From: Erodium maritimum
Taxonomy: Eukaryota; Streptophyta; Magnoliopsida; Geraniales; Geraniaceae
Direction of reading: 5' to 3'
DNA length: 64,000 bases
Assembly (NCBI GenBank): GCA_963921825.1
Contig: OY997594.1
Coordinates: 69,040,221-69,104,220, forward strand
Shown here: positions 3,809-35,892 of the stretch, piece after piece
Numbering within the stretch: position 1 is the stretch's first letter
Layout: each line of letters starts with the position of its first letter
The notes under the pieces: model-generated
Seen by the model: the letters and a program-made list of their open reading frames with translations, nothing else
What the model was told of the DNA's origin: nothing
The model's database searches: none
Program-made: the position numbers and the translations under genes

Positions 3809-5273
3809 CGATTTTTGGATAAACTCGAAATTTTTTATTAGAGAAAGATCTGATCCAAGCAAGATAAGACCAAAGGACAACCATTACAGAGGAGCTCTCA
3901 AAAGGAGCCGCGAGAACACAACCTGAAAACAAAAAGCGAGCACTTAACCCTCATCAGTTACCCACTATTCACCTTCCGAAGTCAGATTCGGATAATCAAA
4001 AGCCTTTGCTTGAGCATGTTGTGTTAACTGAGTCGATTGAGCTTGGAAAAATTGCTTCCCACCCACCGAGTTTGGCATTCTCTCACGACTCAAAGAGCGA
4101 GCTGGTTTAATGTCAATAGTGAAGTAGTCCCATAAGAACTTGGGGGCGACTCTGTCGATTCGAAGCCTTAGGCGGCTCATGCTTCGAATGACGACCCTTA
4201 TTTAGAGGTTTAACTTCCGGAGGTTGGAGAAGAACCTCCTTCCACAGACTACTCTATTGATTCCCGGATGGATCACTCAAAGCCATTTGTTGGGATGACT
4301 GACCAGTTGAACGGTCATCACCCTTAACACGATCTGAAGGATCACCTGAGTGAAGAGGCTTGAACGAACCATTTCCGACATAAGTCTTCATAGGACCGAT
4401 GAATTCGGTACCCAAATTAGAAACTGGTACTAAATTTTGATATGGGCTTGTACTCGTCCAGGCCATATCAGCCAGCCCAGACCCAACAACAACACCCGAC
4501 CTTGTCTGCGTAATCAAAATCACGTCAGCCACTAGACTGGACCGCATTCGACTCAATCCAGCCCCAAACACAGGCTCAGCCGACTCCAACCCAACATACG
4601 AAGGGTCGTCTTCTTCCTCACACGATTCGCGTTCAACAAGATCTGTAGTTACATTTATTTCGCGATAGATTGAAACTTGCGCTCCCCGATCATCTAGAAT
4701 AACCAAATCATAGCTAGGATTTGAAAACACGTGATTAACGGGATCACATATTGTTAACGTATCATGTGGAGCATCACCAGTCCGGGGAGAACCCTCCGGC
4801 GAGACTTGCAGACCAATATTACTCTGAGGAGAAAACTCCTTCGAGTCACTGATACAGGTTCCCCTATCTATGAGAACAATAGCATCACCCATGATGATTT
4901 GTCGACTACTCTGCATAACCTCGATGTTGCTCTGTTGCAGGTAATTTGTGACAGACGAGATTTTCCCACGCCGAGCAATGGCTACCAGCAAGATAAATCC
5001 ATTGATTCAGAAGCGGTTCAGGCTAACGACGGCCTGATTCGCCTCACCTTGTGAACTGTAACGGTCAAACCCAAAAAGTTTCCTTTTACGTTTAGGCCGG
5101 AGCAGAACAGAGGATGCCCTTATTGTACCAAATTCTCCGAATACGTTACGCACCCACTCAATTTTGGTATCGTATGAAAATTACAGACGAAAACCCCGTC
5201 CTCCTGCAAGTGAAACTCTCTGAATTTCGTCCGACGATTTTTTCCACTAGAAACAGGGGCCTCTTCAACCTGG
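3809..5273 (-). mobile_element. ORF1-only LINE insertion (RRM type)
   Basis: The element is flanked by AAACAGATT at 3800-3808 and 5274-5282, a likely target-site duplication. On the minus strand it begins near 5273 with an RRM-containing reading frame and ends at a short A-run at 3809-3815 in a tail of the form TAATAAAAAATTTCGAG. The whole insertion is 1465 bp. It contains one degraded ORF1 and a 3' tail, with no endonuclease or reverse-transcriptase motifs. The tail resembles those at 25501, 33935 and 23105, so these belong together. Confidence 0.6.
4180..5250 (-). pseudogene. LINE ORF1 pseudogene with N-terminal RRM
   Basis: The minus strand shows an RNP-2-like VFVCNF near 5175, then FGEFGTIRASSVLL and an RNP-1-like KLFGFDRY near 5070. 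A helix and INGFILLVAIARRG complete the RRM. This is the layout of the BNR-type plant L1 ORF1, known for an RRM rather than a zinc knuckle. A frameshift near 5150 and a stop near 5000 break the RRM. The frame is then open for 245 codons (4254-4991) through a low-complexity Ser/Gly/Asp region. It stops at 4254, but codons beyond it still read SLWKEVLLQPPEVKP, matching the SPWKEAL block of the copies at 25.7-26.0 kb and 34.4 kb. Confidence 0.55.
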
Positions 5274-5329
5274 AAACAGATTTTTTATAATATGTCTTGA
5301 GAATAGAAGTTTGATTATTTTGTGTGGAT

Positions 5330-5483
5330 ATAATCTTGAATTTGTTATAGCCAAGGGTAGCTTTATCTTGTAATTTGTATTTCTGGTGTTTTGTGTAAAT
5401 AATCTTGAAATTGTTATATAATCTTGAATTTGTTATAGCCAAAGATAGCTTTATCTTGTAATTTGTACTTTTGGTGTTTTGTG
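5330..5483. repeat. 66-bp direct duplication upstream of CYP82 gene 1
   Basis: Positions 5330-5395 and 5418-5483 are near-identical copies beginning ATAATCTTGAATTTGTTATA and ending GTGTTTTGTG. A 22-bp spacer repeats part of the start. They lie 140-290 bp upstream of the P450 start codon, so they may fall in the promoter or 5' leader. Confidence 0.85.
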
Positions 5484-5622
5484 GCCACACAAAATGCCAT
5501 TTGTTTGTATCTTTGAAGCTGTTTTGTACGACCTTTCCTCGTCCTCAAGTTTGGAGATTAGGACTGGAATCCGATGTTTGCCTACATATATGTTATTTCA
5601 TAGAAAACTTGGATATCATACA

Positions 5623-7261
5623 ATGGATATCACTTTTTCCTTGGCAAAATCACAACGCTTTTCAACCCCGGAACTCGCCGGAACATTAATATTATGCGTT
5701 TCGGTGATCTTGGTTGGCCTCTATTTCCTTGTAGGCAAGAATACCAAACGCATGCCCCCAGAACTAAAGGGTGCCCTCCCAATTATAGGACACCTCCACC
5801 TCCTCCCAACCAAAGTCCCTCTTTACCGAACCCTCCAAGACATAGCCGACCAAATCGGACCCGTTTTCACAATCAAGCTCGGCACAAAACGAACCCTCGT
5901 GGTCAGCAGCTTCGAAGCCGCAAAGGAGATCTTCGGCACGCACGACCGGATCTTCCTGACCCGACCCGAATCCGCAGCCGCAAAGTACATGGGCTACAAC
6001 TACGCCGTCCTCAACCTCGCCCCGTACGGACCGTACTGGCAAGCAATGCGCAAGTTCACTATCACCCACCTCTTCTCGAGCTCCCGCCTCGAGCTGCTCA
6101 AGCCACTGCGCAGCGCCGAGCTGAGCACTTCAATTAAACACTTGTTCTCGCTTTCACGAGCTCGTTCAGTGGACATGACCGAGTGGCTCTCGCAGTTGTC
6201 TATGAACAACATGACGCTCATGCTCGCGGGTAAGAGGTACGGGAACGTGGACTCGAGCAACGACGAGGCTCGTAGGTTCGTTAAGGCGATGGAGGAGTTC
6301 TTTTATCTCTGGGGCATGTTCGTGCTCTCCGATAGCGTTCCGTTCACAGAGTGGTTGGACTTTAAGGGTCATATAAAGGCCATGAAGCGCGTGGCCAAGG
6401 AGTTGGACTCTTTGATGAATAGCTGGGTTGAAGAGCATGTTGGAGAAAGGAAGGAGAAGAAAGAATGTGACTTTATCGGCGTAATGTTCTCTGAGTTGGG
6501 TGAAGAAGATTCTTTTCAATACCAATATAAAGATGTCATCAAAGCAACCGCCTTGGTACGTGAATTTTTACCTACTAGGATAAGAAATGGTTATTTGAGT
6601 AATAAAACTTGTATATGTACATTAATTGTAGGGTCTTATATTGGCCGGAGCGGAAACAACATACATTACCTTGATATGGACATTATCACTACTATTAAAC
6701 CATCCCAAAACCATGGAAAAAGCACAAGAAGAACTCGATGTTCAAGTTGGGAGGACACGATGGGTGGATTATTCAGATATAACGAACATGACCTATCTCG
6801 TAGCTGTTGTTAAGGAAACATTGAGGATGTATCCCGCAGGACCTCTTAGTGCGCCGCGGGAAGCCCTTGATGATTGCACTGTAGCTGGATATCACGTTCC
6901 TAAAGGTACTCGTTTGTTACTTAACATATGGAAGCTACATCATGATCCGAAAATTTGGTCGGATCCTGACGAGTTTCAACCAGAAAGGTTTCTCACAACT
7001 CATGCAGAATACGATGTGAGGGGTAAAAATATCGAGTTCATACCGTTCAGTGTAGGGAGGAGAGGTTGCCCGGGGATTTCCCTTGCCATGCAAACCTTAA
7101 TCTTGACTATAGCTAGGGTCCTACAAGGGTTCAATATACGAACTCCGAGGAACCAAAAGGTGGACATGAGTGAAGGTTTTGGAATTTCATTGCCTAAGAC
7201 TACGCGACTTGAGGTCGTGCTCACCCCTCGCCTTTCATTCGAGCTTTATGATCTAAACTAA
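5623..7261 (+). CDS. Cytochrome P450, CYP82 family (gene 1)
   Basis: A complete 520-residue P450. Exon 1 is 5623-6555 and exon 2 is 6632-7261; a 76-bp phase-0 intron opens GTACGT and closes TTGTAG. Visible signatures are an N-terminal membrane anchor (about 16-38), a proline hinge PPELKGALPIIGHL, C-helix YWQAMRKF, I-helix AGAETT (316-321), KETLR (ExxR, Glu373-Arg376), FQPERF, and the heme loop PFSVGRRGCPG with ligand Cys457. Length and AAKYMGYNYA-type sequence fit CYP82, whose members oxidise terpenoids, flavonoids, coumarins or alkaloids at the ER; the substrate here cannot be told. The frame is open upstream to 5479, but 5623 was chosen because the paralogue starts at the equivalent Met and the extension lacks a membrane anchor. 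It appears functional. Confidence 0.92.
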
Positions 7262-7407
7262 TTGTATCGGGTTTTATAGTCATCTTGAGATAAACAAAAA
7301 TGTGGATCAAGTATCAAATATGACCATATTGTAATAGTGTTGAACTATAAGAAATTAAATCATTGTGTAAATCTATTATTGAGATTGCCTTTCACAAGGT
7401 TTAGATC
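7262..7407. other. 3' flank of CYP82 gene 1, conserved with gene 2
   Basis: The sequence after the stop, continuing at 9012-9130 beyond an insertion, aligns with 33006-33095 plus 33918-36065 downstream of CYP82 gene 2. Shared words include AAATCTATTATTG, GGTACAAGACATCAGA and CCTCTTCATATTATATTAA. The duplication therefore carried at least 250 bp of 3' flank. Confidence 0.75.
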
Positions 7408-9011
7408 AACCTGTCCTTCTTATATCTCTAGAAATTTCCTTTCGCTTCTCTCTAACTTTCACAACCCTAGTCTTTTCTACGTCGGCGTTGAATCCGGCCT
7501 CCTCTGAAGCGGGTGACGACGCCGGTGGCTACCATTCCCCCTTATCCTCTTTCCCCTTTCACCCTTCCCCGTTTGCCTCAGATCTGCCCTCAAAATTTCA
7601 GATGCTACCCACTCCTTTCTCTCTTCCGATGGAGGTTATTCTGGCGTTGTCCGGTCGTTTGGTGTCGTGTTGACACCATGGAAGGAGCCCTTTGGCTGGA
7701 TCTGGTCTTTTGGGGGGTAAATCTGTTGCTTTGGGGGGTTTTGGGGCTTGGTTGCTTTCACCTGACCGTCTTCTTCCTTCCTCCCCCTTTTTCTTCGCCT
7801 CGGCCCTTCTCAATACTTCCCTCAGTTCTTCTTCCTCCTTGGCGACCTCTTCACCGGTGGTTGGGTCAGATCTGCTTGTGGGAGACCTTTCCTCACAGAT
7901 CTGATGAAGTGGGTCGTGGATCTTCCCTCCATCCCTGTTTTCCTTCTCCTGGGGTTCGGGTTTCCTTCGATTCTTCTCCTTCCCTTTTTGTTTCCGTTGT
8001 TTTGGCGTTGTCAGGCCTTGTTGAAGCCCCGTTGAGGGTTTTGTTTATATCTTCTAGTTTCGAAACAATTGGGTTGGAGGGGAGGTCTTGGGGTGCTTTG
8101 GATCTCAGTTCTGAGGTCGACTCATCGGCGCTCGGGTCCGTGCTCGCCCTGTCGTCCCTGCTTCTGCAAGCTTGTCTCTCCTCTTGTGGCCGTCGTCTGG
8201 GTGCTGGCTCGGGTCGGGATCTGACTCTTCAGATCGGAGATAAGGGACGCCGATGGCTTCTTGCGTGGGTCGTGAAGGACAGTTTGGTAAGAACCTTTTC
8301 TCCTTGCTTCTCCGACTACACCCTTTCCCTTCCTTTTGATTTGGTAAATTTGTTACGGTGTTGGCCGGATTTTCCTATCATTGGGAAGATCGGGTTGTAC
8401 TAGGCCTGCTGGTTTTAGTCTTCGCCTGTTTGGTAATCCCCGTCTTTTTCTCGGTACCCTTTGGGTTACTGGCACATCGCCTTCTGAGGATTCTCTCTCA
8501 ATGTTGGTTGGGGAATCAGACTTCGGTCTCGGTGAGTTGAGGATAAGTCGGGTTCAACATGCTGGGTTCTATAGCCGGTTTTGGGGTTGCTTTGGTGTAT
8601 TGGGTTCTCTGGTTGCGACTTTGTGGGGTTCATCTCTCTTCTCCCTCTTTGCTCGGTGATTGTTTGGTGGTGGTTTCTTTCCTGTGTTGTGTTTTTTGTT
8701 GGACTTCAAGGCTGGAAATAAGAGTATCTAGACTCAGTTGTATTGTTCTTCATTTTGAGTTATCTGGGTAGACTAGACCTTTTTTTTATGTTGTTTTGTT
8801 GTTATTCACCCCTTGTTGGGTTGTGTTAGGTTTTCTTCATGGTAGAAAAATCTGGTTATTAGACTTGTTGTACCCATTGTATTGGGTTGTTTGTTTCTGT
8901 TTTGAGGTGCTACATGCATGCTCTGGTTTCTACTTTGAGGGGTCTCCCTTTGCCCGAGTTTTCGTTTTGAAAACATGTTTTTATAAAACAAAAAACTCGC
9001 TGATAAAAAAA
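7408..9011 (+). mobile_element. Non-coding LINE-like insertion with 14-bp TSD
   Basis: The 1604-bp insertion is flanked by ACAAGGTTTAGATC at 7394-7407 and 9012-9025. It ends GCTGATAAAAAAAA, a poly(A)-like tail, and interrupts the conserved P450 3' flank. Its 5' half is C/T- and GC-rich, with CCCTAG near the start and repeated AGATCTG words; the 3' half is T/G-rich. Reading frames of up to 296 codons exist, but their composition is biased and no LINE protein motif appears. It shares its 3' block with 52662-54098 and 3055-3790. Confidence 0.75.
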
Positions 9012-9185
9012 ACAAGGTTTAGATCCTCCAAAACCATATACCTCCTTATCATTTCTATCATTAAGGTACAAGACATCAGAGGAATGTGGTAATTATAACC
9101 TCTTCATATTATATTAATGAGTATCCTTGAAACAGTTGCAAAGCCTACATACATGTCTTTTTCCTTGGCAATGAATATGGTGTAG

Positions 9186-9590
9186 TTTTTTTTATCAGCG
9201 AAAACAAATTGAATTAAACTTCTTCTGAGGTAGAAAAGATACACACTCGTGAAGCACAAGCTAGCTACAATTGAGACAAACTAGCAAGGGAAACAAACAC
9301 AAAAGCAGTCCAGAGAATAACCCAAAACTAAGAGAAATGAGCTATCTAAAATGACCATCTTTTCCCAAGAAGTAGTTTGAGCTAAGTGCTGTGAGAAGAA
9401 GATGGACGGACCTTGAGGCTTTGAATCTGATTTTTTTCCAGAGAGTATGGGTTGTGATTATTATTGTGAGTCTCGAAAGTATGTGTGTGTGGAGATTATG
9501 AATTGAGAGATGGCTTTGTTGGGTCTCGATAGAGGGTATGAACACATACTTACAGCAGAAATAACTCGAGACCATGCCATAGAACACTAC
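9186..9590 (-). other. Probable 5'-truncated LINE tail, otherwise unassigned
   Basis: The left edge is a T-run followed by ATCAGCG, on the minus strand an A-tail after TTCGCTGAT like the LINE tails elsewhere in the window. No target duplication or protein was found. The rest up to 9590 shows nothing I can name. Confidence 0.35.
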
Positions 9591-9599
9591 CAAATATTA

Positions 9600-11088
9600 G
9601 ATACACAAGAGAATAAACAATATGGATGTCTCCTTACCAATTCGTTCAAGAACACAAAAGAAACGATGATCGGCTTGAGTCTCCAAGACGCTACGTATCC
9701 AATTGGAATCAAAGCCACGTAGTTCTTCTTTAGATGACTCAAGAACACAACAAGAGGGAGGGAAAATGCCAAACCCGAAATTGTAGGGTGAGAGGGAGAG
9801 AAGTTGTGTTTTTCTTCTTGTCTTGTGATTTGTTGTAGGAAAAAGATGACTTAAACCATCAACAACCATCGAGGACAAGTAAGGTGTGAAGCATGGTGTG
9901 AAGTAAGACAAGTATGGTGCTAAGTATGGCAAGACAAGATGGGTTAGGTGGTGAATCACCAACACCTTAATCCTTGTCTTGCTTACTTAGTACTAATTAA
10001 TCAAGACTTGATTAATTAGTTCCATGGGTCTTGGTTGCATGAGCCTTTCATGGGCCTCTTGGAACATGGCCCATGGCCATTACCAACGAGGTCCCGTGAC
10101 GTGCTCATCGCCTCCAAGCCTTCCATACCGGAAATGTCCAACATTATCCGACGCGATCAATCCCAAGACTCCAAGCCTTATCTTGATCCGTAATGTCCTA
10201 TTCACTTACGGGCACATGACCCAAAACCCAGTTTTGGTCATGTCCCGAGACAACTCTCTTTTGGCCATTCTCCATAAATGTGTCAATGAGTTTCATCCTT
10301 CGGTGTGACCCTTAGGTTTATGCATGTCGATAGATCAACGTAAAATCCCATTTTACTTGATCCTATGTAAGTAGCAGCTAACGAGACTTTAGTATTGCCT
10401 GACACTACATAGCGAATCGAACCAATCGATTCTAACCTTTCCGTCGTCCCTGTCATTATCCTTTTATCTCCGATATCCTGATTGAGATAAGGCATAGAGT
10501 CGCCATCCTTATTATTCTCAATCATTGCTCCTTGATATGTGAGATGACTGAATATATGATACCCAGTATCATGTGCATGGCCATGCTATTCTTTCAGTCA
10601 CTCTCGAACAAGCGGTCGAGAACCGATATCTTTCTCATACCTCAGTATGAGGGATATATCTCTTAGCCGTCTTTCGTGTCACTCATGCAGCCCGTCCCCA
10701 AGGCAATCATGGTCGTTATGGAAGCCCTGCTACGGACAACGTTAGGCTCAGGTCAAACTTAGTTGTTGACTGCATAGTGATCACAAAGACTCCTTGGTCT
10801 AAGGATACATGACAAGCTACGACACTGAATATGTTCATGACTCAATCTATGGCACATATTCAGGGCGGGTCGTCCAATATCCTGTCCCACATGATATCTA
10901 TGATCAGACTCCGGAATCCCATTCCAATGACTAACAGAACGTAAGCCATGAAGAGCCATTTTTCATACTAGTCGCTTCTAGTGAAGCTTTATTGACTAGG
11001 GACCCATCGAGTGTGATCCATCTCGATCTATGGTTCTATTCGCATGGTGGGCATAGATCAGAAATCACATCGATATATTACTCCAACA
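9600..11088 (-). mobile_element. Possible Copia-type LTR remnant
   Basis: On the minus strand the segment starts TGTTGGAGTAATATATCGAT at 11088, a typical LTR start. It continues for about 1.5 kb with no gene-like frame and ends near 9600 in a CT-rich leader-like region. No partner LTR, primer site or target duplication was found, so boundaries and class are tentative. Confidence 0.35.
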
Positions 11089-11093
11089 CATAA

Positions 11094-11498
11094 GTAATAT
11101 AAAGCCGCTTTAATCTTATTGCTAATGATGATATATACATTTGGACATTTATGATTGAACTACGAGCACTAAGACTAACAGGCTTATGCTCCAAGTAACC
11201 CCGGAATCTGCAAGTGTTGAAGTGAGAATGTAGCCTCCAAAAGTATGTACTAAATTAATCTTGTGATTGATCTTCATGATAGTTGAATCTGGGAGAGTGG
11301 CTTGTGTGATTAGAGTGAGTGATGTTGGGTTTCTTCCAAAAAAAATTGTAAGTGTTGTTGTGATATTGTAGCCTCTAGTGCTATGTCCTGTGATAACCTT
11401 ATGCATGTGGTTGGCTTGTGGATGACTGATGCAGGAGTATTGAATGGAGTGACTAAGTATTTGAGCTCGAACAAGGAAGAAGAAGATTTTTCCTCCAA
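11094..11498. other. Intergenic, nothing recognised
   Basis: No gene-like frame, terminal repeat or RNA gene is visible. The start of the following 76-bp repeat (CTCCAAGTAACC) also occurs near 11190, so it may be an older part of the same tandem structure. Confidence 0.4.
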
Positions 11499-11653: not shown

Positions 11654-11689
11654 AGGTGACTGAAGTGGAGTTGTTGAATTGGTAGTAAG

Positions 11690-14140: not shown

Positions 14141-14141
14141 G

Positions 14142-14192
14142 GCGAAGAAGAAGAAGAAGAAGAAGAAGAAGAAGAAGAAGAAGAAGAAGAAG

Positions 14193-14222: not shown

Positions 14223-14223
<1 letters not shown>

Positions 14224-15667: not shown

Positions 15668-15689
15668 TTAGGGTTTTCCCAAAAAACTA

Positions 15690-19213: not shown

Positions 19214-21480
19214 GTTTTTTTTTTGTTAAGGAGTAGGTATTCATTAATCAAAGTACCAAATTAAAAATACCCACTATTAAGGGTGGACCCAAAATATACC
19301 AGGAATAAACCGAGAGTCCCCTCTTAAAAAATAAGCAGGTACTCCTGAAATCATGGCTAGGAAAAACAGGTACTCTACAGGATAGAGTAGAAACATCTAA
19401 ACACGAGATATTCGAGCGATAAAATCAATCCAAGGAGCTAGATCCAATTCTGGAGGTTGCCTTGGGCGGTAGGAGTAGACATGAAGGCTCACAAGCTAAC
19501 CCAATCCCCTTGGTAAGAGCCAAATGGGTCTTGAGAGGCCAAAAGTGTCGGCGTCCTAAGAATCTAAAGGCCTATCATAAATCCCGACGAGGTTGTTTAG
19601 CATCCTTCGTCAAGTTTTGGAGGATAAGGTCCTGCGATGTTGCATGCACATTCTAATCTATGTCCATGAGCGTGAAAGTCCTCTTCCTTTATATAGTTAC
19701 GATCTCCTTGTTTTTGGACCCCTTCTCTCTGGTCAACGTCTTGATGTTATTTATTTTCCTATGTACTCTTTTAGCTTGTTGTTTTATCCATGTTTCGTGT
19801 GCAATCTGATATCGGGGGGTAGAGGTCTTCTCCTACTCGGACCCAGGTAAGATCTCATGTTGGATACTCTACCGAGCAAGTTGAGGTCTAGATACCAATC
19901 CTTAGTTGGCATAGGTGTATCCTGGTAAGGACGAGCTGGGAACTTAATGGGATGCGGGGATAGGGAAGGTACTACCGATCCCTTACCAAGTGTGCAATTC
20001 TTCAACGTTACCTCAGAAGTGGGGGTTTCGGAGATTTGGTCTTTAGGTAGAGCTAGGAACTCAATCACAAAATTGGGTTGGCTCCTGCTAATTGTGATCA
20101 GTACATTATGCATGGCCAGGTGGCTGGGTTGTTGTTGTTCACGTACGCTTGTTACATTAACCTGGTAACCAGTATGAGAGAAAACAGGTTTTTCCCCGAC
20201 CGGAGATGGCACCTTAGGGGTTAGGGTAGGAATAGCATTCCATTTCAAGAGGAAGAAGGCTTCCGCGTTGACTGGTGGAGGAGTCCGAAGCGAATCCGTG
20301 TATCTGTGTGCAAATTTGTCGACCTCTAGGAGGGTAGCAATACAATAGTGTAATTGCATAGCCAATACGGTCACACCGGTAACAAAATTCCGATAGCTTC
20401 TCATACTCTACTCCGACTTTGAGCGGTTTGGCACCCACATACACTTGCATCATGAGATGGCGACGGAGTGGTCTTGTAGCGTCCAGCTCCACCCGTAACC
20501 ATAGGAAAGTATCCCATCCTCGGAGAGTATTAGGAGCTCCCATTGGATTTACCCGACCAATTTTGACCTCCCGCCCAAGATTTGAGACGATGAATGCTCG
20601 TATCTGAGAGGTCCTAGCTTCTACTGGAATATCAAAAGCTCTTTCCCAAATTTGGATTGAGCTAAATTCCAAAGACTCTAGTTGGGTCCTTGGTGAAAAA
20701 GGTGTTAGGAGCAGGGTCGTACCGTAGAAAGCCCACGGTTCCCTTGCTCTAATACCATCCATGTCTTCCTATGAACTAAAAAAGAACGTCATAATATTTT
20801 TCGTTAAAGGTTGGATCGCGATGCCTTCCATGTTCCAGACGTTTCCAATAACAGAACAAAGGGATTGAGGCCTTACTCGTTTCTCCGTTAGGAGATTTTT
20901 GGCGAGCGCAAAATGGTAGCTGGAGTCGTCGATCGACGGCACGATATTTTCGGAGACATCGATCACCTCGTCATCATCCTTAAAGAATTTGTCCACTTAG
21001 GATGGAACCAATGAGACTTTTGTTAGCTTAGCTTGGAGCTTCTCTAGACTTGCATGGGCAGAATCCATGGTCAGGTGGGTAGGAGTATCAAGAGAGAAGG
21101 TCCAGAAAATTCTCGGCCACGATCCCTTTTCATGTTGGTTTTGTGCTTCGGCATGGTCCAGATGGGGGTTCATTGTGGTGGTGGGTGACGCATCTGGTGG
21201 GGTTTGTGCCAGATGTGTTGGTGGTTGGGCTATCTGGCGCCGGTGTAAAGAGGAGGGGATTGCTGGGTTACCGACGGCGGTGTTTTCAGATGGGTTTTTT
21301 TACACCGTAGATATCGTCGACAGCAAAGCTTGGGGAGGGGAAAAGGAAAAGATAAAGGAGGAAGATGAAATTCAACTGAGCTACGGAGGGTGGAAGAAGA
21401 AGAAAAGGAAAAGAAGGATGATATCATCATTATCGATCTCAAGAAGAAGACGGCGTGGTGCAATGAGACAGAAAGAAGGG
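19214..21480 (-). mobile_element. LINE with ORF1 but no ORF2
   Basis: The left edge is a T-run and TTAAGGAGTAGGTATTC, on the minus strand a poly(A) tail after GAATACCTACTCCTTAA. ORF1 occupies 21068-19784, preceded by a GC-rich leader up to about 21480. Only about 570 bp lie between the end of ORF1 similarity and the tail, far too little for an endonuclease-reverse transcriptase. A target duplication was not found, so the outer limits are approximate. Confidence 0.6.
19784..21068 (-). pseudogene. LINE ORF1 pseudogene, DUF4283 plus zinc knuckle
   Basis: It starts MDSAHASLEKLQAKLTKV at 21068, a short amphipathic helix. A stop near 20999 and a frameshift near 20765 follow. The DUF4283-like domain is seen as LLTEKRVRPQSL, then WAFYGTTLLLTPFSP and AFDIPVEARTSQIRAF. 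Next comes the family hallmark LDATRPLRRHLMMQ and a CCHC_4-type knuckle start, SEFCYRCDRIGYA. The C-terminal 200 codons (20404-19784) are Pro/Ser-rich. This is the standard architecture of plant L1 ORF1 nucleic-acid-binding protein. It differs from the RRM-type ORF1s at 4.2 and 34.2 kb. Confidence 0.75.
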
Positions 21481-25400: not shown

Positions 25401-25500
25401 TGTAAAGGGTGAGTTGTCAAATATAAGTAATTAACTGTTTCAACAATAACAACAAGTTATAAGTTACCTGTATCTATTAAGTCATTAAGACTACAAACAT

Positions 25501-26383
25501 TTTTTTTATAACCTCGAAAATTTTATTAAAGACCGATTCCAAGAGAGGGAATCAGAAGACCCTGATTTAAGAAGAACCAGGGTAAAAGAGGCCAAAAGAC
25601 CCGAACAACGCTTACAGAGGAGTTCTGCTAAGGGGGGACTATAAGAAAAACCTTAACCCAAAAACTGAAAAAACCAGAAAACATAACAAGAATACAAAAA
25701 AAAAACTATTTGGCCGAACTCTGACGGGCCTTATGAGATGCTTTCCATAAGGTCGAGACACGGGGCGCTGCCTTGAAGGCTCGTTCCCGAGAACTGGCTC
25801 TCGATCGAGTAACGACAGTATAAGTAGGAAGTCGACTCTGACGAGGTTGGAGGAGGGCTTCCTTCCAAGGACTGCTCTCCTTCTTCTCCGCTTCCTTCGA
25901 GACCTCTGGAACATGAGTTTCAATCAAGTCCTGTTGCTCAGAACACTCAACCCAACCCACAACCGATACCCCGGTACTCGCACCCAAACCCTTCCTCACC
26001 CTCACTTATCGTCTTCGTAACAGAAGTGGGCCCACGACCCAGACGAGCCACTAGACCAAACGAGCCATCAACCGAAGGCTCAAAACCAATTAAAGGAACA
26101 AAGTCCTTGCAAGAATGGGCTTCCACCGGGTTCAATAAAGGGACTCCTGATCCCGAACATTTGTTAGACGGATTCGCAACACCCTGCGTTGCTTGTGTAT
26201 CAACCACTTCATCAATCCTGCTGAATATAACGCACCAAAATCAGACTTGAATTTCGAAAACTGTTGAGAAACACGAAACATCCGGTGATTTGCAATCTGC
26301 GCCTGAATCTCCTACGCCAACCACTCGACAACCAACGTCAATTTTCGATCACCGGCGAGCAGGAGCTTCAGCAAATTCTAGTC
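25501..26383 (-). mobile_element. 5'-truncated ORF1-only LINE with TSD
   Basis: Flanked by GACTACAAACAT(TT) at 25489-25502 and 26384-26397. The minus-strand tail reads TTTAATAAAATTTTCGAGG, then an A-run. The interior (26005-25706) encodes SSPWKEALLQPRQSR, then VVTRSRASS, the same C-terminal ORF1 block as at 34.4 kb (SPWKEALQKPISVVE, then VVYQTRARTS). The element passes from ORF1 C-terminus straight to the tail with no ORF2. Confidence 0.7.
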
Positions 26384-26647
26384 GACTACAAACATTTTAA
26401 TGTTCCGAATTTTTTGTACTAAGCGAAACTTCTTAATAAAAGAAATAACAAGACATTTTGAGAAAAAGAAACCGACAAAAATGAGATGCATAAATATCAA
26501 GGATAATATCATAAAAGTTTATAATGTTGTAATATGATTGTATGAACTTTGAACAAAAGCTCTGTGGAGTGATATGGGTACGAGAACGTGAACATGATCT
26601 AATGTGCTTTGTAAATAGAAATGAGATTGTAAAATGAACATGAACCA

Positions 26648-29144
26648 TGTAAGAACCGCCCCCGGTCGATCCCGGTCGAACCGGAGGTTTTCGGCGAAAG
26701 TTGACTTTTTGCTGGAAAAGTCAACTGATGACTCCGGGAGTCATTCGGGACCTTTCCGGAGCCCAAAAATATTAGCCGTCGTTACGGTTAGTTTAGTTGG
26801 GCCGTTTCCTTTCAAATGACTGTAATTGTGAAAAAGTCAACCCGGGATCATTTTCGGTCAAACCAAAGGTCTTAAGGAATTAATTATTTGTATGCTGAAA
26901 TATTTTGGTAAAGGTGGTCCCTATTATGGACACATGTCCATAGTGGCTTGGGTTAGAAGAAACAAGAGCAAAAGGGCCCTTTTACCCTTGAATTTGGGTT
27001 TGTGAGGCCTTTAGGCAAAGAGGGCAAAAATGGTTTTTCTCACTTAGGTTTAAAGCAACACTAGGGGACCAATTTCAGCACAATTGCACTACTTGGCCGA
27101 AAATAGAGAGAAAAGAAGAGTGAAGAAAAGCTTTGAAAGCTTGAGGAGGAAGAAAGGAGGAAAATGATTGATTTTGGGCTTAGTTTCTACTCACACCTCA
27201 TCAAAAACACTAGATTCTTCATCTCCTTCCTATTTCCAAGATAATCATCTAATCCTTTTTTGTTTTTGTTGATTTTGGTTCATGGGTATTGAGGAAAATG
27301 GATGAAGAATGGTTGGGTTTTTGATTTGGATGTTTGGATGTTGATTTTTGGAGAAAAAGGAAGTTAGATGATGGTTTTAATTGGATTTTGTGGAGTTTTG
27401 ATGAAGACCCATGATGGGTTTTGAAGTAGAGACGTTTTAGGGACTGTTTTGAAGCTTTGGAAGGTCATCAATGGAGGTTTTGGGGGTAATTTCGTGAAAA
27501 ACCAAAGCTGGAGGAAGAAGAAGGTGAATAGTGTCAGACCCGTCACAGATCCGTGACGGGCACCGTGACGGGAGACGTCACGGCTCCGTGAGGGAGACCG
27601 TGACGGCGTCAGTCACGGCTCCGTGAGGAGAATCGTGACAGACTTGAGTTGGGCCTTTTGGGCCCATTTTGTTGGATTTTGAGTAATTGGGACGGTTAGC
27701 TATAACCGAGTCCTTTTGGGGTTAATTGAGAATGTTTTCCTCTTTAAACCTTTGTGAATTACTCTTAATTCGAGTATTTATTTGTGATCCAAGACTTTGG
27801 ACCCGAGCTCGACGGAGGAGGAGACCCTTGGACATCGTGAAGTGACGGGGAGGAAGCTAGCTAGGTCATCCGCAGCTAGGAGTGGATTGCTTTTGGGGTA
27901 GGGAAAGTAGCGAATACCAGTTTAATTGCGGAAAGTTACTAGTATGCATATAGGTTGCAATTACTTGATTTAATTATTAGAATTGCATGAATAGGATGTG
28001 AGGAACGAGTGAAATGAGGGATAGCTTACAATGCATGCGAGCCATGTCGAGCCCTTAGGTTGCGTGTTGATTGAAATGCCATGATCTTTTGTTTGAGATG
28101 CATGATGTGTGATTTAGCCGTTATTAGATTGAGAATCATGTTATGATATGCTCGGTGTAGTGTATTGATATGATTTGGGCATGTGTTCCATGTTTGTTGC
28201 GACGTGAACCGTTGGTTGTGATATGATCGGGTGAGTGATAGACCGATGTGATATGTTACGGTGAGTTGGCTCGGTTGGTATACCGTGGCCGAACTATGGC
28301 TTTGTGATGCGTGTTATTCTCTTGATGTGTGTTCCAAGAGGAGGTGTGTCCGGTATGACGCCTACACCGAGGGAGTATGCCGGTGTGGGGTATCGAGGCC
28401 AAGGATGGCGTGATTTTTACCCCGATGTTGTGTGGTCCGGGAAGACGTACGATCGAGGTATGTGCCGGTCCGGTACGTGTTGTGAGTGATGCCCCGAGTC
28501 TGTGTGATGGGAAGACGTCCGACCGATGGATATGTCGGTCAAGGATGTGCCCCGAGTCTAAGTGACGGGAAGATATCAGGACCGATGATGTGTGGTCCGG
28601 TACGATATAAGTGGGACGGTTGTGTGCATTCGGTGATGTTGGAGACTGTTGTACGGGACATGTGTCTGTTCTGCCTTGTGTTGTATACTTGATGATTGGT
28701 TGTGTGCGATGACTAAGTGTGATTATGGTCTTGTGAGAGTGATTAGTGATTGGTAAAATTCCGTGGACGTTATTAGTTGTTACGCCTTACTAGCATGCCC
28801 TAATTGGACGGTTACTCGTGGTGGTGAGTGAATAGCTTAACCCTTAACTACTTTTCCTATTGAGCAAAAGCTCACCCCTTTATCTTGTGGTTTATAGGTC
28901 TTGAGCGGGACTTGTGCTTGCGGGATGCTCGATGCTTGGGAGCTACCGAGGGTCCTAGGCTAGCTTGTCTAGAGACGTACTATTATTTGAACTAAACATT
29001 TTATTACCGGAATTATGAGCTGTTGACTCACTTTTATCGAATTATTAATATTGTTGGAACTTAATTCTTTCAAAATTGTCTTTTATTATTGTTACTTTAA
29101 GTTCACGTCTCGAGTCCGGTCAAAACCGGATTTGGGGAGTGACA
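26648..29144 (+). mobile_element. Gypsy-type 5' LTR of a truncated element
   Basis: A 2497-bp LTR starting TGTAAGAACCG and ending GGGGAGTGACA. It shares its 3' half with the LTRs at 1-2277 and 38615-41464 (GAGCAAAAGCTCACCCC near 28860). The position that in LTR 1 holds CCGTGC arrays here holds CGTGACGG arrays (27536-27640). It is followed by a primer-binding site, so it is a 5' LTR. No gag or pol follows; the element is cut off before CYP82 gene 2. Confidence 0.85.
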
Positions 29145-29147
29145 ATT

Positions 29148-29159
29148 TGGTATCAAAGC
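29148..29159 (+). other. Retrotransposon primer-binding site
   Basis: TGGTATCAAAGC lies three bases after the LTR end. It differs at one base from the plant initiator tRNA-Met primer site TGGTATCAGAGC. About 270 bp of presumed 5' leader follow without a gag frame. Confidence 0.8.
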
Positions 29160-29525
29160 CTGGTTTTTCAAAAACTTCGGACCGTACGTCAATTAGGTGA
29201 GTAGAGTTGGGTCGTTAGGTTGCCGTGTGTCGGTTACGCAAGTCGGAGATGTCCTACGCATGGAAACGAGACGGAGAGAGTCTCGGGTTGGTGAAATGTC
29301 CGGTCTAGGTACCGTGTACTTGTGGTTGATGTCATTGATTGAAGTAACTGTCTTCTGAGTGTTGACGTGGCCAGGTGGTAATGGTGTAATTACCGGTAGC
29401 CCAACATTTTTCAAAAGTTAGCTAGAGTAAAGGAAAAAAATGCTCTTATAAAAAAGGAAGAAGAATTATAAATGTAACTATGTAAGTTCCAAATGAAACT
29501 TGGATATCATACCACCATAGAAGAG

Positions 29526-32500
29526 ATGGACATCGTTTCTTCTTTGCCAAAACCCCAACATTTTTCTTCCCCGGAACTTGCCGGAATATTAACATTATGC
29601 GTTTTGGCAATCTTGGTTGGCCTATATTTCCTTGTAGGCAAGAATACCAAACTCATGCCCCCAGAACTAAAGGGTGCCCTCCCAATCATAGGGCACCTCC
29701 ACCTCCTCCCGACCCAAGTCCCTCTTTACCGAACCCTCAATGACTTAGCCGACCAAATCGGACCCGTTTTCACCATCAAGCTCGGCACAAAACGAACCCT
29801 CGTGGTCAGCAGCTGGGAAGCCGCTAAGGAGATCTTCGGCACCCACGACCGGATCTTCCTGACCCGCCCCAAATCCGCAGCCGCAAAGTACTTGGGCTAC
29901 AACTACGCCCTCTTCCCTCTCGCCCCATACGGACCATACTGGCAAGCCATGCGCAAGTTCACCATGACCCATCTCTTGTCGACCTCCCGGCTCGAGCTGC
30001 TCAAGCCACTGCGCAGCGCCGAGCTGAGCGCTTCGATCAAACACTTGTTCTCGCTGTCACGAGCCGGGTCTCCGGTGGACATGAGCGAGTGGTTCTCGCA
30101 GCTGGCTATGAACTATATGACCCTGCTGATCGCGGGTAAGAGGTATGGGAACGAGGATCCGAGCAACGACGAGGCTCGGAGGTTCGTGAGGACGATGGAG
30201 GAGTACTTCTATCTGCTGGGGATGTTCGTGTTGTCCGATAGCGTTCCGTTCACGGAGTGGTTGGACTTTCAGGGTCGGATAAAGGCCATGAAGCGCGTGG
30301 CCAAGGAGTTGGACTCTTTGATGAATAGCTGGGTTGAAGAGCATGTTGGAGAAAGGAAGGTGAAGAAAGAATGTGACTTTATCGACGTAATGTTGTCTCA
30401 GCTGGGTGGTGAAGATGACTCTATTCAGTATCAAAATCAAGATGTCATCAAAGCAACCGCCTTGGTACGTAAATTTTTATGTACTCGAATGTTGTTGAAT
30501 GTGTATCTCATGTTTTTGAGTTAGCGCTGACTTGTTGGTATTGTTTCTATTTTAGTAGTTCTTGCATATAAGCTATTTTTTTAAAGGATGTGTTCCTACT
30601 TAGGAACATTGTGTTCAGAATGTTGACATAAATAGCATCCGTCGTCTTACCCCGAGTGATGATTTCTGCTTTCAATCGGGTGAGACGGTTTGGAGAAGAA
30701 GATAACATTTAATTTTTCTAGTAATATACTAGTATAATATTAGGTTAAAAAATTAATTGAGCTTGAAACTAAATTGGGCGTAAGAAAATCCCTACTTACA
30801 ATTATTTTAAAACATCACAAGTAATAACTTGATGATACAACATGGTCACAAGTGGCATCTTTTATGGTTATATCAGTAATATGGTGTAGAGAGAATGTCA
30901 CATAGCCTTCGCTAATTATTACCGTTTTTTCACATAACCCCTTCTAACTATTTTTTGTGACATTTAACTCCTCTAACTTCATTTTTTTTCACTTTAGTCT
31001 AACGGTGTTAAATTTTGGATGGAAACAACCATGTGCAAAGCACATGATGTTTTATTGTTATTAAATGACATAACTACCATTTCATATATATTAACTTAAC
31101 CTAACTAAACTCAAACCCTTATCTCTCCCACTCTTTCCCTTTCTCATTTCCTCTCAGCCGCACAAACCTTCCAACTCCAAATTTTCACCTCCAATTATCT
31201 CATCTACTTTTCTCTCATCTCAAACACTTATTCTTGCTCTCACCTTTCTTCTCTCTCGCCCGGAAGTTGAAATCAAAATCAAACCCATTGACCCAACCAA
31301 ACCCAATTCGATTTTGTGAGTCTCTGTTTCTGAAATTTGGGGGGGGGGGGGGGGGGGGGGAATTCAAAACGGGTCTGGGGTCTGATGGTGGCCGGATCTG
31401 TGGAGAACGGGTCATTATTTTTTTTCGTTTTTTGTTTAGTTTCAACTAATCTGGAATTAACAATAAAATTAAATTAAATATGGGAGATTAGCGAAGAGAA
31501 TTAACAAAAATAGAATTAAGGAAAATAATGAATAGAAGTAGTAAATATTTAAATAGTAATGAAAATAAAGGAAAAGAATAAAAACACATTAATGAAAACA
31601 AAAAATAGTAAAGAAAAAACATTTTTTAATATAAAAGTAATAATATTTAATTAAAAAAAATACCAATATTAAAAAAAGAATTAGTAAAATAAAGGAAAAG
31701 AATAAAAAAAATTAACAAATTTTTTAAAAAAATTAAAGAAAATAATAGAAATAGAAAACTATTATTTTTATGGTAAATTTTAAAATTTTGAGAGTTAGAG
31801 AAGGGTATTATTGACATTTCAACTTTGTAGGACTCAATGGTAAGGTTTTGAAAATTTGATGGTCAATGAGGTGTATTTTAGACATTTGACTTTCACTGGA
31901 TGGAAAGTTAACATCGTTTGACTAAAGTGAAGAAAAAAAATGAAGTTAGAGGAGTTAAATGTCACAAAAAATAGTTAGGGGGTGATGTGAAAAACGGTTA
32001 TAGTTAACGAGAGTTATGTGTCATTTTCCCTATGGTGTATGTTTTGTTTGATTTAAGCTTGATTTTAGGGTTATATCAGTAATATGGTGTATGTTTTGTT
32101 TGATTTAAGCTTGATTGTGCTGGATAAATTCCTAGGCATGGAATAGGTTCTAATGTCGTATGTTTAGTTACTTTTTTAGGTGAAGATTGTCAATTAGGGC
32201 ATTTTTTTTTTCTCTTTACAAGTTAACTGTGTTTTTTGGGGGATATTGGATGGTTTGTAGCTAGATCATAGTGTAACTTATCTTTTATCTCAAAAGAGAT
32301 CTTTGTCGATGAATAAAAACAACATGGCCATAAGTGATGGGTGTTATTTGACTAACACGTCTTGTATGTACATTGTAGGGTCTTATATTAGCAGGTGTGG
32401 ATACAACATATAATACCTCGACATGGACATTATCATTACTATTAAACCATCCCAAAGTTATGGAGAAAGCACAAGAAGAACTCGACATTCGCGTTGGAAG

Positions 32501-33005
32501 GAATCGATGGGTGGATTATTCAGATATAACGAACTTGACATATCTCATGGCTATTATCAAGGAAACGTTGCGAATTTATCCAGCGGGACCACTTAACGTA
32601 CCACGGGAAGCCATTGAAGATTGCACTATAGCTGGATATCATGTCCCTAAAGGTACTCGTTTATTAGTTAACATATGGAAGATGCATCATGATCCAAAAA
32701 TTTGGTCGGATCCTTATGAGTTTCAACCAGAAAGATTTCTCACAACTCATGCAGAATATGATATGAGGGGTAAGAATACCGAGTTCATACCATTCAGTGT
32801 AGGGAGGAGAAGTTGTCCAGGGATTGCACTTGCAACACAAATTTTACACTTGACTATAGCGAGGGTTTTGCAAGGGTTCAATATGCATATCCCAGGTAAC
32901 CAAAAGGTGGACATGAGTGAAGGCTTAGGAATTACATTACCTAAGGCTATGCATTTACAGGTCGCGCTCACCCCTCGCCTTTCATCCGAGCTCTACGATA
33001 TATAA
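29526..33005 (+). CDS. Cytochrome P450, CYP82 family (gene 2)
   Basis: A complete 521-residue P450. Exon 1 is 29526-30464, exon 2 is 32379-33005; a 1914-bp phase-0 intron with GTACGT donor and TTGTAG acceptor sits where gene 1's does. Signatures: proline hinge, YWQAMRKF, I-helix AGVDTT, KETLR, FQPERF, and heme loop PFSVGRRSCPG with Cys459. It is colinear with gene 1. The I-helix (AGVDTT against AGAETT) and the residue before the heme Cys (Ser against Gly) differ and could affect activity. The frame is open to an upstream Met at 29493; 29526 matches gene 1. The intron carries a MULE but keeps good splice sites. CYP82 enzymes are ER-bound specialised-metabolism oxidases; the substrate is unknown. 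Confidence 0.9.
30889..32030. mobile_element. Non-autonomous Mutator-like element (1142 bp)
   Basis: Terminal inverted repeats of about 130 bp share the block TAACTATTTTTTGTGACATT, then TAACTCCTCTAACTTCATT. The element starts GAGAGAATGTCACAT and ends ATGTGTCATTTTCCC. Both sides carry TATGGTGTA (30880-30888, 32031-32039), and 9-bp duplications are the MULE hallmark. The interior has a pyrimidine-rich, then GC-richer stretch (31130-31410) and an A-rich stretch (31450-31790), but no transposase. It lies wholly in the intron of CYP82 gene 2. The GC-richer part could be a captured gene piece (Pack-MULE); unproven. Confidence 0.93.
31339..31360. repeat. Poly-G tract of 22 bases
   Basis: A pure G run inside the MULE. 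It gives an artificial poly-Gly/poly-Pro frame, could form a G-quadruplex, and its length may be misassembled. Confidence 0.95.
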
Positions 33006-33920
33006 ATTAATTGTTTTATGGTTTATACTTATCTCGGAATAAACATCGATGTGAACACTCATGATTAATTCTCAAATATGATATGTTGTAAAAGTGTTTT
33101 TTTAAATAAATGTAGTATTAATAAAGATAAACTTTCCCGGTGGATACACGAACCATAACTGGAAGGCTATGTAAGTAGTCTGAAATAGGAAAAATGGAGC
33201 ATAGCTAACATAAGTGAAAACCCTAACGAAACGAGTGTCAATAGAGTTGCTAATAATCATCCACTTGTCGAATAGTGCGAGTGAGTGACAAACAATATGG
33301 GACTATTCGATGGATGACCGAGTAGGAGGCTTGACTTTCTCGTCCTTGATGATCAAGTTAGGCACAATTGGACTACTTTCCCTCCTTGTAGGTTAACAGC
33401 CTCTAATGTCCTCTCTCGGATAGATGTGAGGGCACCGTAAATGTAGAGTATGTTGAAAACTGTTCAGCTTGACGAGAGGCATAATGATACCTGGAATAAT
33501 CAGTTGTAACTTGGATATGGTGACTGGAAAGTATCAACCCAGTCAATTGCCCCTAAGGTTATCATCCGGATAGGTGAGGGTGTTTCTTGTCATTCGCCCG
33601 TCGCTTTGTTACATTACCAAAACCCTTGAGCCCTTTGGTGGATCTTCCAGACTCGTGTCTAGGGATATGAGGTCCTTTTCTGGAATGCCTGATCTGGTGA
33701 AGACGCCATGCTCGAAGATGACCTCTGTCGATATGTCGCCAGATGCAATCCTTTAGTCTTGATCACACTCTATCGGTGAACTTTTGCAACCACCAAATTT
33801 TTTCCGAGACCTATATTCTCCTTCCATGTATCCTCAATCTACATAGTTGTTGCAAAAACCAAGAATGGAAATCAAAACACGAAACACCATTGCTAATGTC
33901 GCTCAAAACATTCCATGTTG
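33006..33920. other. 3' flank of CYP82 gene 2 with an extra insertion
   Basis: The first 90 bases and 33918 onward align with gene 1's 3' flank. The roughly 820 bp between (33096-33917) has no counterpart there and is presumably inserted. It starts with a T-run but has no clear target duplication or recognisable protein. Confidence 0.5.
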
Positions 33921-33934
33921 AAGTATAAGAAACT

Positions 33935-35892
33935 TTTTTTTTTTTGATAAGCTAAAGAATTTTATTAAGCAAATGTTCTATAAAGATATAGAACAAAGCA
34001 AGAAAGAGATCCAAACAGACCTTTTCCTTTAAACCAATACAGCTACAAAGAGCAAAAACAGAACCTGAACAAAACAAGACGTAAACAAAACACCTTGCCT
34101 AGTTCCTAATCGGGTTCAAACAAGTAAACCGGTTAGATACCGGAACAGGGGTTAGGACTTGAGCAGAACTGGGTTCTCTTCCCTAGGAATCCTGATCGAG
34201 AGCTAAGGAACAAAAATCAACAGCCTTTCTACCAACCTTCGAGTTGTAACTCCAGTTGCCCGAACTATCTTTTTTGGCTACATTCACCAAGAAACAGCCC
34301 GAATTATCCCCTTTATCAGTAGAAGTCCTGGCTCTCGTCTGATACACTACCATTGGTTGTGCAATCACCTTCGCTTGGCCCTTCTTAGGGCGACCACGTC
34401 GTTTTGGCTCAACCACCGAGATCGGTTTTTGCAAGGCTTCCTTCCACGGGCTTCCTTGAGAACCAATCTCCACAACCGCGTGAACGCCCCGAAACGGATC
34501 GTCTTGACCCGAACCTATCGCTGATGGATCCAAATCATTCTCCAGTCGATTAAAAATTGAAGCCAAATTTGGATCCTTTTGGAACAAAACTGAGCAAACT
34601 GGGACATGCCCAGTAGATAGACCCGAATCTGATGTGCCAAGCCCAAGAGATAGGCCCGGTTCAGAAGTGTCAACTGGGGCAGACCCAGGAAAAAGGCCCG
34701 CTTGGCCCAACACCTCCCGAAGCCCACCAACATGTCCAGATTTGACGCAATCCCGTAACGCAGACGGAGACGATCTCTCTTCCAGGAATCGCGGCTCAAT
34801 CAATTCAGAATCAACAGAGTTTCCTTTGTTCAAATTCGAAAATCCTTGATCCAACGAAATCCCTGTGATCAAGGGATCGACTTCTGAAACAGATCGTGAA
34901 AACCCGCCGGATTTCTGCACCGACGTCGCCGGGACTGTCGCCGGGATTGTTGCCGGAGAGGGTGTGGCCAGAAGAGGCTTGACCACACCTCTAGAATGCT
35001 CCAGACCTTCTCCTTCTGTCCGACCGAGTTCGCCGGGGCTGGAAAACGCAACTGCACGCGGAACAGAGCATGTGCTCTGTTTCGCGTTTCCGACTAGTTC
35101 AGTCACCTGGGAGTCCGCCAGGATTGTCTCCGGAGAGGGTGTGGCCAGAAGAGGCTTGACCACACCTCTAGAATGCTCTCCTTCTGTCCGACCGAGTTCG
35201 CCGGGGCTGGAAAACGCAGCTGCACGCGGAACAGAGCATGTGCTCTGTTTCGCGTTTCCGACTGCTTCAGTCACCTGGGAGTCCAACCGGCGCCGGGAAA
35301 ATGCCACGAACAAGACGTGACCATTCACCTGAGCCCCGTTTAACGTCTCCAAAGCCCGGGACGCAGCCAAAGGCGTCGTAAATCGGACGAAACCGAAAAA
35401 ACGTCATGTACTGTTTGCACGCTTCAGCGAAGATAAAGAATCTATGTCGCCAAAAATGGATAGCTTATCACGAAACCAGTCTTCTGAAGCAGGATAAGGT
35501 AGGTTCCGGACGTAAAGCTCAGTGTCGCTCACTTCAAAAAGTATCGGCGAACGTCGACGGCGAGCACCTGCTCCACCCGTGCGAACTCCGATCGTCTCCC
35601 TTTCCTTTGAGTGCGCAGGAATAGAAGACGAAACAGCAGTAACCTCACCGGGCAACGAACTCTTTCACGCTGCACCCGTGCTAGATTGGTTGCTCCGGCC
35701 ACCTGTTTGTTTGCCCCGGCCACTCTGCACACCACCTCCAACCTTAGAGTGTCTCTTGACTGGCACAGCAATGGCCTGAAACTCCTTGTAAAGCGACAGT
35801 AAACCTGAGCAAAAAACTAAAAACTCATCAAGGGTACCGGGCATGAACCTCCGGCTCCGTCTAGCTTGAGAGAATTTAGACTTCTTCATCTA
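33935..35892 (-). mobile_element. ORF1-only LINE insertion (BNR/RRM type), 14-bp TSD
   Basis: Perfect AAGTATAAGAAACT duplications at 33921-33934 and 35893-35906 bound a 1958-bp insertion. On the minus strand it starts three bases before an ATG at 35889, encodes an RRM-type ORF1 to 34183, and ends in a 3' UTR of about 240 bp with TTAATAAAATTC and a 13-base A-tail. There is no space for ORF2. It interrupts the P450 3' flank within about 50 bp of the site hit in gene 1's flank. Confidence 0.88.
34183..35889 (-). pseudogene. BNR-type LINE ORF1 (RRM), near-intact
   Basis: The start MKKSKFSQARRSRRF at 35889 runs to about 35670, where a frameshift moves to the frame ending at 35404. That frame holds RNP-2 (ELYVRNLPYP) and DKLSIFGDIDSL. 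A single TGA at 35404-35406 is followed in the same frame by RNP-1 (RFFGFVRF) and the rest of the RRM. The frame then stays open for about 400 more codons. Positions 34944-35288 are an in-frame tandem duplication (59 and 56 codons). Near the C-terminus are SPWKEALQKP and a KRRGRPKKGQ AT-hook-like motif. RRM-bearing ORF1 without a zinc knuckle defines the BNR group of plant L1 LINEs. Two lesions suggest it is recent but dead. Confidence 0.8.

Follow-up and report, generated by a model that had tools for sequence, protein, structure and literature searches.

ORF1-only, RRM-type LINE copies form a genome-wide family in Erodium maritimum and are probably non-autonomous half-LINEs

A stretch of 64,000 nucleotides from the plant Erodium maritimum (contig OY997594.1, positions 69,040,221 to 69,104,220; hereafter the window) contains an insertion at 33935 to 35892 in which the first open reading frame (ORF1) of a long interspersed nuclear element (LINE) runs directly into a 3' tail without an ORF2. 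This insertion is a full-length member of a genome-wide, ORF1-only family whose ORF1 protein (ORF1p) carries an RNA recognition motif (RRM). We consider it very probable that these RRM-type elements are non-autonomous half-LINEs, with an RNA encoding ORF1p only and mobilised by the enzyme of other LINEs. An earlier note on this DNA, written from its letters alone, had read four ORF1-plus-tail elements in the window as half-LINEs; all four are present, all on the minus strand. For the RRM type this reading now draws on a shared junction, the absence of ORF2, target duplications and selection on ORF1, whereas the DUF4283 type contributes a shared junction only. The parts of the full-length copy, called here the 33935 element, are as follows, in window coordinates.

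33935 to 35892, minus strand: full-length RRM-type half-LINE copy with a 3-nt leader, broken ORF1, 3' untranslated region (3'UTR) and A-run
33921 to 33934: target-site duplication AAGTATAAGAAACT, 14 bp, on the 3' side of the element
35893 to 35906: second copy of target-site duplication AAGTATAAGAAACT, on the 5' side
35311 to 35517, minus strand: RRM_1 in ORF1 (Pfam E 1.6e-13, stops read as X)
34183 to 35370, minus strand: longest open part of ORF1, 395 amino acids, with the conserved C-terminal block
35009 to 35284, minus strand: tandem duplication with a 168-bp step within ORF1, which splits family alignments
33935 to 34182, minus strand: the element past its stop, comprising the ORF1 end of its relatives, the 3'UTR and the A-run
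33974 to 33995, minus strand: 3'-terminal hairpin GUUCUAUA...UAUAGAAC (z -3.9 for the 59-nt end)

With the 33935 element as query, the genome assembly (763 Mb, with nine chromosome-sized contigs) yielded 74 matching places, and its segment 33935 to 34182 yielded 42, the best 40 candidates being scored in each search. Thirty RRM-family loci were cut (L001-L030), corresponding to 28 separate loci, with L005 and L014 as duplicates. ORF1 runs into the tail in all 28. The match includes the query's 5' half (before position 777) in 26 of them, 22 of which reach position 311 or lower; alignments split at position 777 because of the 168-bp-step duplication in the window copy. Searching with the 248-bp tail gave 9 further places and with the 63-bp end 12 (of 16), and all 21 are half-LINEs, some of them 5'-truncated. 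The exact tail pattern led to 16 new places, of which three were read, each with an ORF1 end and 3'UTR, and the 24 extra tails that were fetched all belong to half-LINEs. The 22-base tail occurs exactly 43 times in the genome (control 0) and 570 times with up to three mismatches (control 54), 100 of the 570 places being listed. Conversely, the uninterrupted ORF1 of L012 was used as query and 80 loci were scored, 72 of which extend to the C-terminus. Among the matches listed, 42 of these 72 loci have a same-strand tail at a distance of -81 to +274 bp from ORF1, and C6:39205349 is a 43rd (43/72). The ORF1-to-tail junction that the earlier note had picked out in the window is common across the RRM type, which is multi-copy with one ORF1-to-tail structure.

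ORF2 was sought by tblastn, the first query being the 1373-amino-acid ORF2 of L061 and later ones being pieces of ORF2 from the RRM-type clade. In none of 49 RRM-family loci (28 from L001-L030 without L005 and L014, 9 from L062-L070 and 12 from L081-L092) did these queries find ORF2 in the ORF1-to-tail interval, and an ORF2 hidden there, which the earlier note had named as a result that would overturn its reading, is rejected for the RRM type. The queries recover 24 of 24 fetched ORF2 loci, 13 of which supplied queries. Within the 64-kb window they gave no match at E 1e-3. ORF2 matches in the fetched loci fall outside the ORF1-to-tail span, as read from their coordinates. In L011 the match is upstream of ORF1 on the same strand, where the half-LINE adjoins a reverse-transcriptase part; in L019 it lies past the tail, again on the same strand; in L008, L024, L033, L037, L041, L046 and L050 it is on the opposite strand. 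The half-LINE of L033 sits between endonuclease parts of another LINE, which is on the opposite strand.

The same data bear on the idea that each copy is an independent internal deletion, or splicing-out, of ORF2 from an ordinary LINE. Mammalian L1 RNA is known to undergo splicing. In the RRM type, nothing beyond the missing ORF2 speaks for such an origin, and one DUF4283-type place with an unread 3.5-kb gap could be a complete parent. Independent deletions are rejected for the RRM type because the ORF1-to-tail junction is shared; one junction and a conserved 3'UTR recur across subfamilies, no parent LINE with the same tail appeared among the 24 further tails, and the scanned half-LINE ORF1s are without the weak middle DUF4283-like match of L120 and L112, two loci of autonomous type. 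For the RRM type this origin is largely refuted, and we regard it as improbable in the extreme.

Thirteen copies have a 5' end defined by a duplication, two of them by matches of only 8-9 bp. Their unit length is 1.75-1.96 kb, with the window copy at the upper end, and 3-83 nt separate the unit start from the first ATG. The RRM-type ORF1 encodes about 535 amino acids (536-557 in those read), beginning with a RRSIPGDLGEFLAFCSG-like block and continuing through the RRM and a fast linker to the conserved C-terminal block. Pfam places an RRM in the ORF1 of three uninterrupted half-LINE copies. ORF1 is uninterrupted over at least 430 amino acids in 17 of the 80 scored loci, at protein identities from 100% down to 47%. 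One uninterrupted copy, L028 (548 amino acids), is itself an insertion with an 18-bp duplication; in L008 the frame is uninterrupted and the RRM half is frame-shifted. The 3'UTR is short, about 150 nt, and carries a hairpin in most of 44 distinct ends. In these ends the conserved terminal segment precedes the A-run and AATAAA lies near the A-run, although the 44 ends were chosen by their terminal motif, so that conservation of the motif there is partly circular. Most half-LINE copies read GCTTATC or GCTTATA before the A-run. A sub-threshold zinc-ribbon match in another frame of the 33935 element (Pfam E 8.5e-4) was taken as chance. The earlier note's observation that the 5' end is kept while ORF2 is lost applies to the 33935 element and its full-length relatives, but not to the 3809 and 25501 elements described below, both of which are 5'-truncated.

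The RRM type also carries features consistent with target-primed reverse transcription, namely an A-tail, target duplications and 5' truncation. Flank matches of at least 10 bp were found in 8 of 13 copies versus 3 of 156 mismatched pairs, and with a minimum of 12 bp the figures are 7 of 13 and 0 of 156. This comparison leaves aside L003 and L009 because of the local repeats around them (with both, 10 of 15 versus 3 of 210), as well as L006, L010, L015, L018, L020, L029, L030 and six satellite copies. The truncated copies L062 and L069 have duplications at their own breakpoints. Within the window, the duplications that the earlier note had reported at three insertions were recovered, measuring 14, 15 and 9 bp at the 33935, 25501 and 3809 elements, respectively.

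The six satellite copies (L007, L012, L021, L025, L008 and L022, of 28) lie within a tandem satellite of about 170 bp, and five of them are less than 6 Mb from a contig start. L007, L021 and L025, which belong to two branches of the ORF1 tree, share one entry site in the palindrome CATACTATAGTATG, and the first letters of their duplications are ATAGTATG. The insertion point of L012, a member of a third branch, is no more than about 4 nt from that site; L008 and L022 are at other sites.

Pooled pairwise omega among the six least-broken copies is 0.57, with 0.47 for the N-terminal part including the RRM, 0.97 for the linker and 0.33 for the C-terminal part. The closest pairs give 0.5 to 2.6 and more distant pairs 0.45 to 0.55, and between two subfamilies omega is 0.48 (95% confidence interval 0.37-0.61). 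On a tree of 24 ORF1 copies (L018, L020, L029 and L030 excluded), internal branches have a normalised nonsynonymous/synonymous ratio of 0.51 and terminal branches one of 0.80 (Fisher p 4e-8). For the C-terminal block the values are 0.23 and 0.70 (p 1e-4), and the linker shows no difference between internal and terminal branches (p 0.34). Nonsense changes number 14 on internal and 72 on terminal branches (p 5e-5). Some of the internal ones are probably alignment or parsimony error; the long-branch copies L015, L010 and L006, perhaps partly misaligned, were kept in the tree. Constraint on internal branches combined with relaxation on terminal ones therefore indicates that ORF1 was functional during the spread of the family and that copies decay after landing. 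Judged from these substitution patterns, ORF1 of the RRM type was under purifying selection during spread.

Low omega on internal branches would also be expected if the copies were processed pseudogenes of domesticated, LINE-ORF1-derived host genes, the mRNAs of these stable sources having been retrocopied by L1, and the very short leaders and the AATAAA near the A-run fit such an origin as well. Yet the uninterrupted frames at 17 of 80 loci, spanning identities from 100% to 47%, would call for many independent source genes. Moreover, the uninterrupted L028 is an insertion in its own right, with its 18-bp duplication, and 570 tail matches at up to three mismatches stand against 54 in the control. 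We therefore consider host-gene pseudogenes unlikely.

Starting from the reverse-transcriptase part next to L011, the search reached a clade of LINEs with 150 scored places and ORF2 frames of up to 1253 amino acids. In one of these, L120, ORF1 contains an RRM (E 6e-9), together with a DUF4283-like match that is weak and under the cut-off (E 0.007), and the start of ORF2 follows. In L112, the upstream stretch that was read lacks an RRM but shows a weak match of the DUF4283-like kind (E 0.001). In one-against-one comparisons with L120, five of six half-LINE ORF1 proteins match its RRM at E 6e-11 to 3e-9 (the sixth, L008, at 0.31), and the C-terminal block is matched at E 7e-4 to 0.024, in collinear order. 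Three half-LINE ORF1s scanned gave no DUF4283-like match. Eight of 11 sampled ends of the autonomous clade were readable: five have GCTGATC before the A-run and three are one-base variants of it (L107, L113, L118). Not among these eight are L103 and L114 (three bases only), L106 and L117 (without an A-run) and L111 (not followed). A hairpin lies just upstream of the terminal motif in all six autonomous ends that were folded. Passages of the review PMC3747384 describe a plant L1 lineage with a conserved stem-loop 3' end that is thought to be recognised by its own enzyme. The half-LINE 3' end is of this stem-loop style, and its similarity to the autonomous ends is suggestive, though no proof of a donor. 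The earlier note had pointed to full-length relatives with the same tail; the LINEs found share a similar hairpin layout and the last bases only. Ten top zf-RVT loci and L061 led no further, being members of a separate LINE lineage whose end differs; the ends of L072 and L077 were irregular.

L120 also informs a further alternative, a bipartite LINE in which ORF1-only and ORF2-only RNAs are mutually obligate. The ORF1-only units are numerous and under selection, in keeping with such a system, but L120 has its own ORF1 directly before the ORF2 start, and therefore at least one possible donor is complete. A bipartite arrangement seems to us highly improbable.

In the window, a 141-amino-acid frame at 2520-2945 on the minus strand matches the ORF1 of L120 (29% over 147 amino acids, E 4e-22) and has a sub-threshold Pfam RRM trace (E 0.076). 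It is what remains of a LINE of the same kind as the likely donor, and lies close to the 3809 half-LINE.

Returning to half-LINEs mobilised in trans, a plausible cycle would begin with a short RNA that encodes solely ORF1p, the RRM protein of about 535 amino acids. ORF1p would bind its own source RNA, in cis. The endonuclease/reverse transcriptase of an RRM-type autonomous L1 may then recognise the 3' end with its hairpin, conserved terminal segment and A-run. This donor enzyme would nick the target and copy the half-LINE RNA by target-primed reverse transcription. Trans mobilisation, cis-binding by ORF1p, the LINE that supplies ORF2 and any activity today are aspects that we infer.

Several observations weigh against this reading. 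Among the matches listed, 29 of the 72 ORF1 loci have no tail, either near or up to 12 kb away, and an internal promoter would have little space in leaders of 3-83 nt. Half-LINE and autonomous tails resemble each other in how the hairpin is laid out and in some 7 bases ahead of the A-run, no more, and an RRM was present in one of the two autonomous-type ORF1 stretches read (L120, not L112). No ORF2 element with the same 3'UTR of about 150 nt was found among the best 40 of 1,796 and 1,048 candidates; with the best 40-150 candidates scored, a parent that carries ORF2 but whose tail has diverged could escape. The hairpin z is unremarkable in the 25501 (+0.5) and 3809 (-0.8) elements. Flank matches are only 8-9 bp in the satellite copies L012 and L025, the match in L008 is not adjacent to the A-run, and L009 lacks a clean adjacent duplication. 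Finally, in the DUF4283 type, the gap at C6:35575768-35580717, which is unread, could have room for ORF2 or a nested insertion.

The other three elements of the window represent further families.

3809 to 5273, minus strand: 5'-truncated RRM-type half-LINE of a second family (its relative L032 has RRM_1 at E 1.4e-11)
3800 to 3808 and 5274 to 5282: target-site duplication AAACAGATT, 9 bp, of the 3809 element
4998 to 5177, minus strand: partial RRM_1 of the 3809 element (Pfam E 1.6e-5)
25504 to 26383, minus strand: 5'-truncated copy of a third family (the 25501 element), with a C-terminal ORF1-like part and tail and no Pfam domain
25489 to 25503 and 26384 to 26398: target-site duplication GACTACAAACATTTT, 15 bp, of the 25501 element, partly ambiguous with a T-run
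19214 to 21480, minus strand: DUF4283/zinc-knuckle ORF1 element with tail and without ORF2, decayed
20565 to 20861, minus strand: DUF4283 domain of the 19214 element (Pfam E 3.3e-10)
20361 to 20486, minus strand: zf-CCHC_4 stretch of the 19214 element (Pfam E 2.1e-4, under the cut-off)
19214 to 19442, minus strand: final ~229 bp of the 19214 tail, common to the repeat family L093-L100, whose members differ upstream

As the earlier note had stated, both RRM-type and DUF4283/zinc-knuckle-type ORF1s occur here, with Pfam matches in the 33935, 3809 and 19214 elements. The 3809 query matched 40 loci, four of them nearly whole (window included) and the rest shorter, mostly covering the last 400-650 bp. 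RRM-type ORF1 similarity was seen in 18 of the 30 cut 3809-family loci, L032 having a full RRM_1, and in none of the 30 did tblastn find a same-strand ORF2 in the ORF1-to-tail interval. With the 25501 element as query, 40 loci matched as well, eight of them (window included) over nearly the entire length. This element has no Pfam domain in three forward frames and no tblastx match to the other window elements; its sole tie to the group is a short SPWKEAL-like motif, read by eye.

In the 19214 family, among the matches listed, the tail lies within 882 bp on the same strand in 21 of 38 ORF1-part places, and 16 of the 38 are without a tail. In the remaining one, ORF1 at C6:35579686-35580717 and the tail at C6:35575768 are 3,544 bp apart on the minus strand. 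The zf-CCHC_4 domain is above the cut-off in L121, a relative of the 19214 element (E 4.4e-8). Both DUF4283-type copies read (19214 and L121) are decayed and frame-broken; no flank match of 19214 exceeds 9 bp, and the flank match of L121 is only 8-9 bp. For the DUF4283 type, the shared junction is the sole half-LINE feature shown. L093-L100 are unrelated upstream of the shared ~229-bp tail and are possibly another non-autonomous LINE follower; Pfam found no domain in the upstream part, and no ORF2, in three that were scanned, and none of the eight matched the L061 ORF2 at E <1.

Gene-like sequences accompany these elements. Cytochrome P450-like gene copies, named by eye, lie at 5479-7261 and 29493-33005 in blocks that are 84-90% identical; the 33935 half-LINE is just downstream of one copy and the 3809 half-LINE just upstream of the other. 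Two related long open frames of 787 and 784 amino acids lie on opposite strands at 48311-50674 (plus) and 58195-60549 (minus), and presumably resemble plant multi-C2-domain membrane proteins.

Selection on the RRM-type sequence indicates that a plant L1 ORF1 protein can be worth keeping for an element without a reverse transcriptase of its own. It thereby becomes directly testable what ORF1p does in plant LINEs and which cis/trans rules they follow, and the half-LINEs supply a natural minimal ORF1 for such tests. Some plant gene models annotated as 'RRM' or 'DUF4283' may represent mobile half-LINEs instead of LINE fragments or genes. We lean towards a broader interpretation, in which an old and diversified plant half-LINE superfamily, still coding for protein, lives on as a parasite of complete L1s, as would befit hundreds of tails and ORF1s that differ to below 50% identity and are often open. 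It would have lost the DUF4283-like core, kept the RRM and the C-terminal block, and would capture the ORF2 protein via its own 3' hairpin. A way of life like that of mammalian HAL1 would then have evolved separately in plants, at least once with an RRM ORF1 and perhaps again with a DUF4283 ORF1.

Among known systems, BNR-type plant L1 LINEs, reportedly described by Heitkam and Schmidt in 2009, are similar in having an RRM in ORF1, and L120 aligns collinearly with the half-LINEs at the RRM and C-terminal block. The RRM-type half-LINEs differ from them in lacking an ORF2 with endonuclease and reverse transcriptase, by which BNR LINEs are recognised, and in having no DUF4283-like match in the three ORF1s scanned. 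Their 3'UTR is short, whereas several hundred bases follow ORF2 in L101, L107 and L110. Celine, a poplar LINE, has an ORF1 with DUF4283, and passages of PMC11288735 give an example of 6,114 bp with ORF2 and a 635-bp 5'UTR; the 19214 element shares the DUF4283 ORF1 but is 2.3 kb long and without ORF2. The maize elements ZmSINE2/3 are described in passages of PMC3747384 as non-autonomous, with an L1-like 3' stem-loop as the likely enzyme handle. Half-LINEs and plant short interspersed nuclear elements (SINEs) are both non-autonomous with a 3' stem-loop, but the half-LINE encodes a selected protein, and its length of 1.75-1.96 kb together with a selected ORF of about 535 amino acids rules out a SINE. 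A phrase search of the open-access literature, with subscription papers and Repbase outside its scope, found no description of a plant ORF1-only LINE. Mammalian HAL1 is a non-autonomous L1 derivative encoding ORF1p only, with several independent origins in mammals according to passages of PMC5753468. The plant half-LINE is likewise non-autonomous and encodes ORF1p only; it differs in its plant host, its RRM-type ORF1 with a C-terminal block of its own, its short leader and its 3' hairpin, and an origin from mammalian L1 is not expected. Overall, mammalian HAL1 is the closest known system, a comparison of how the elements work and not a claim of membership by descent.

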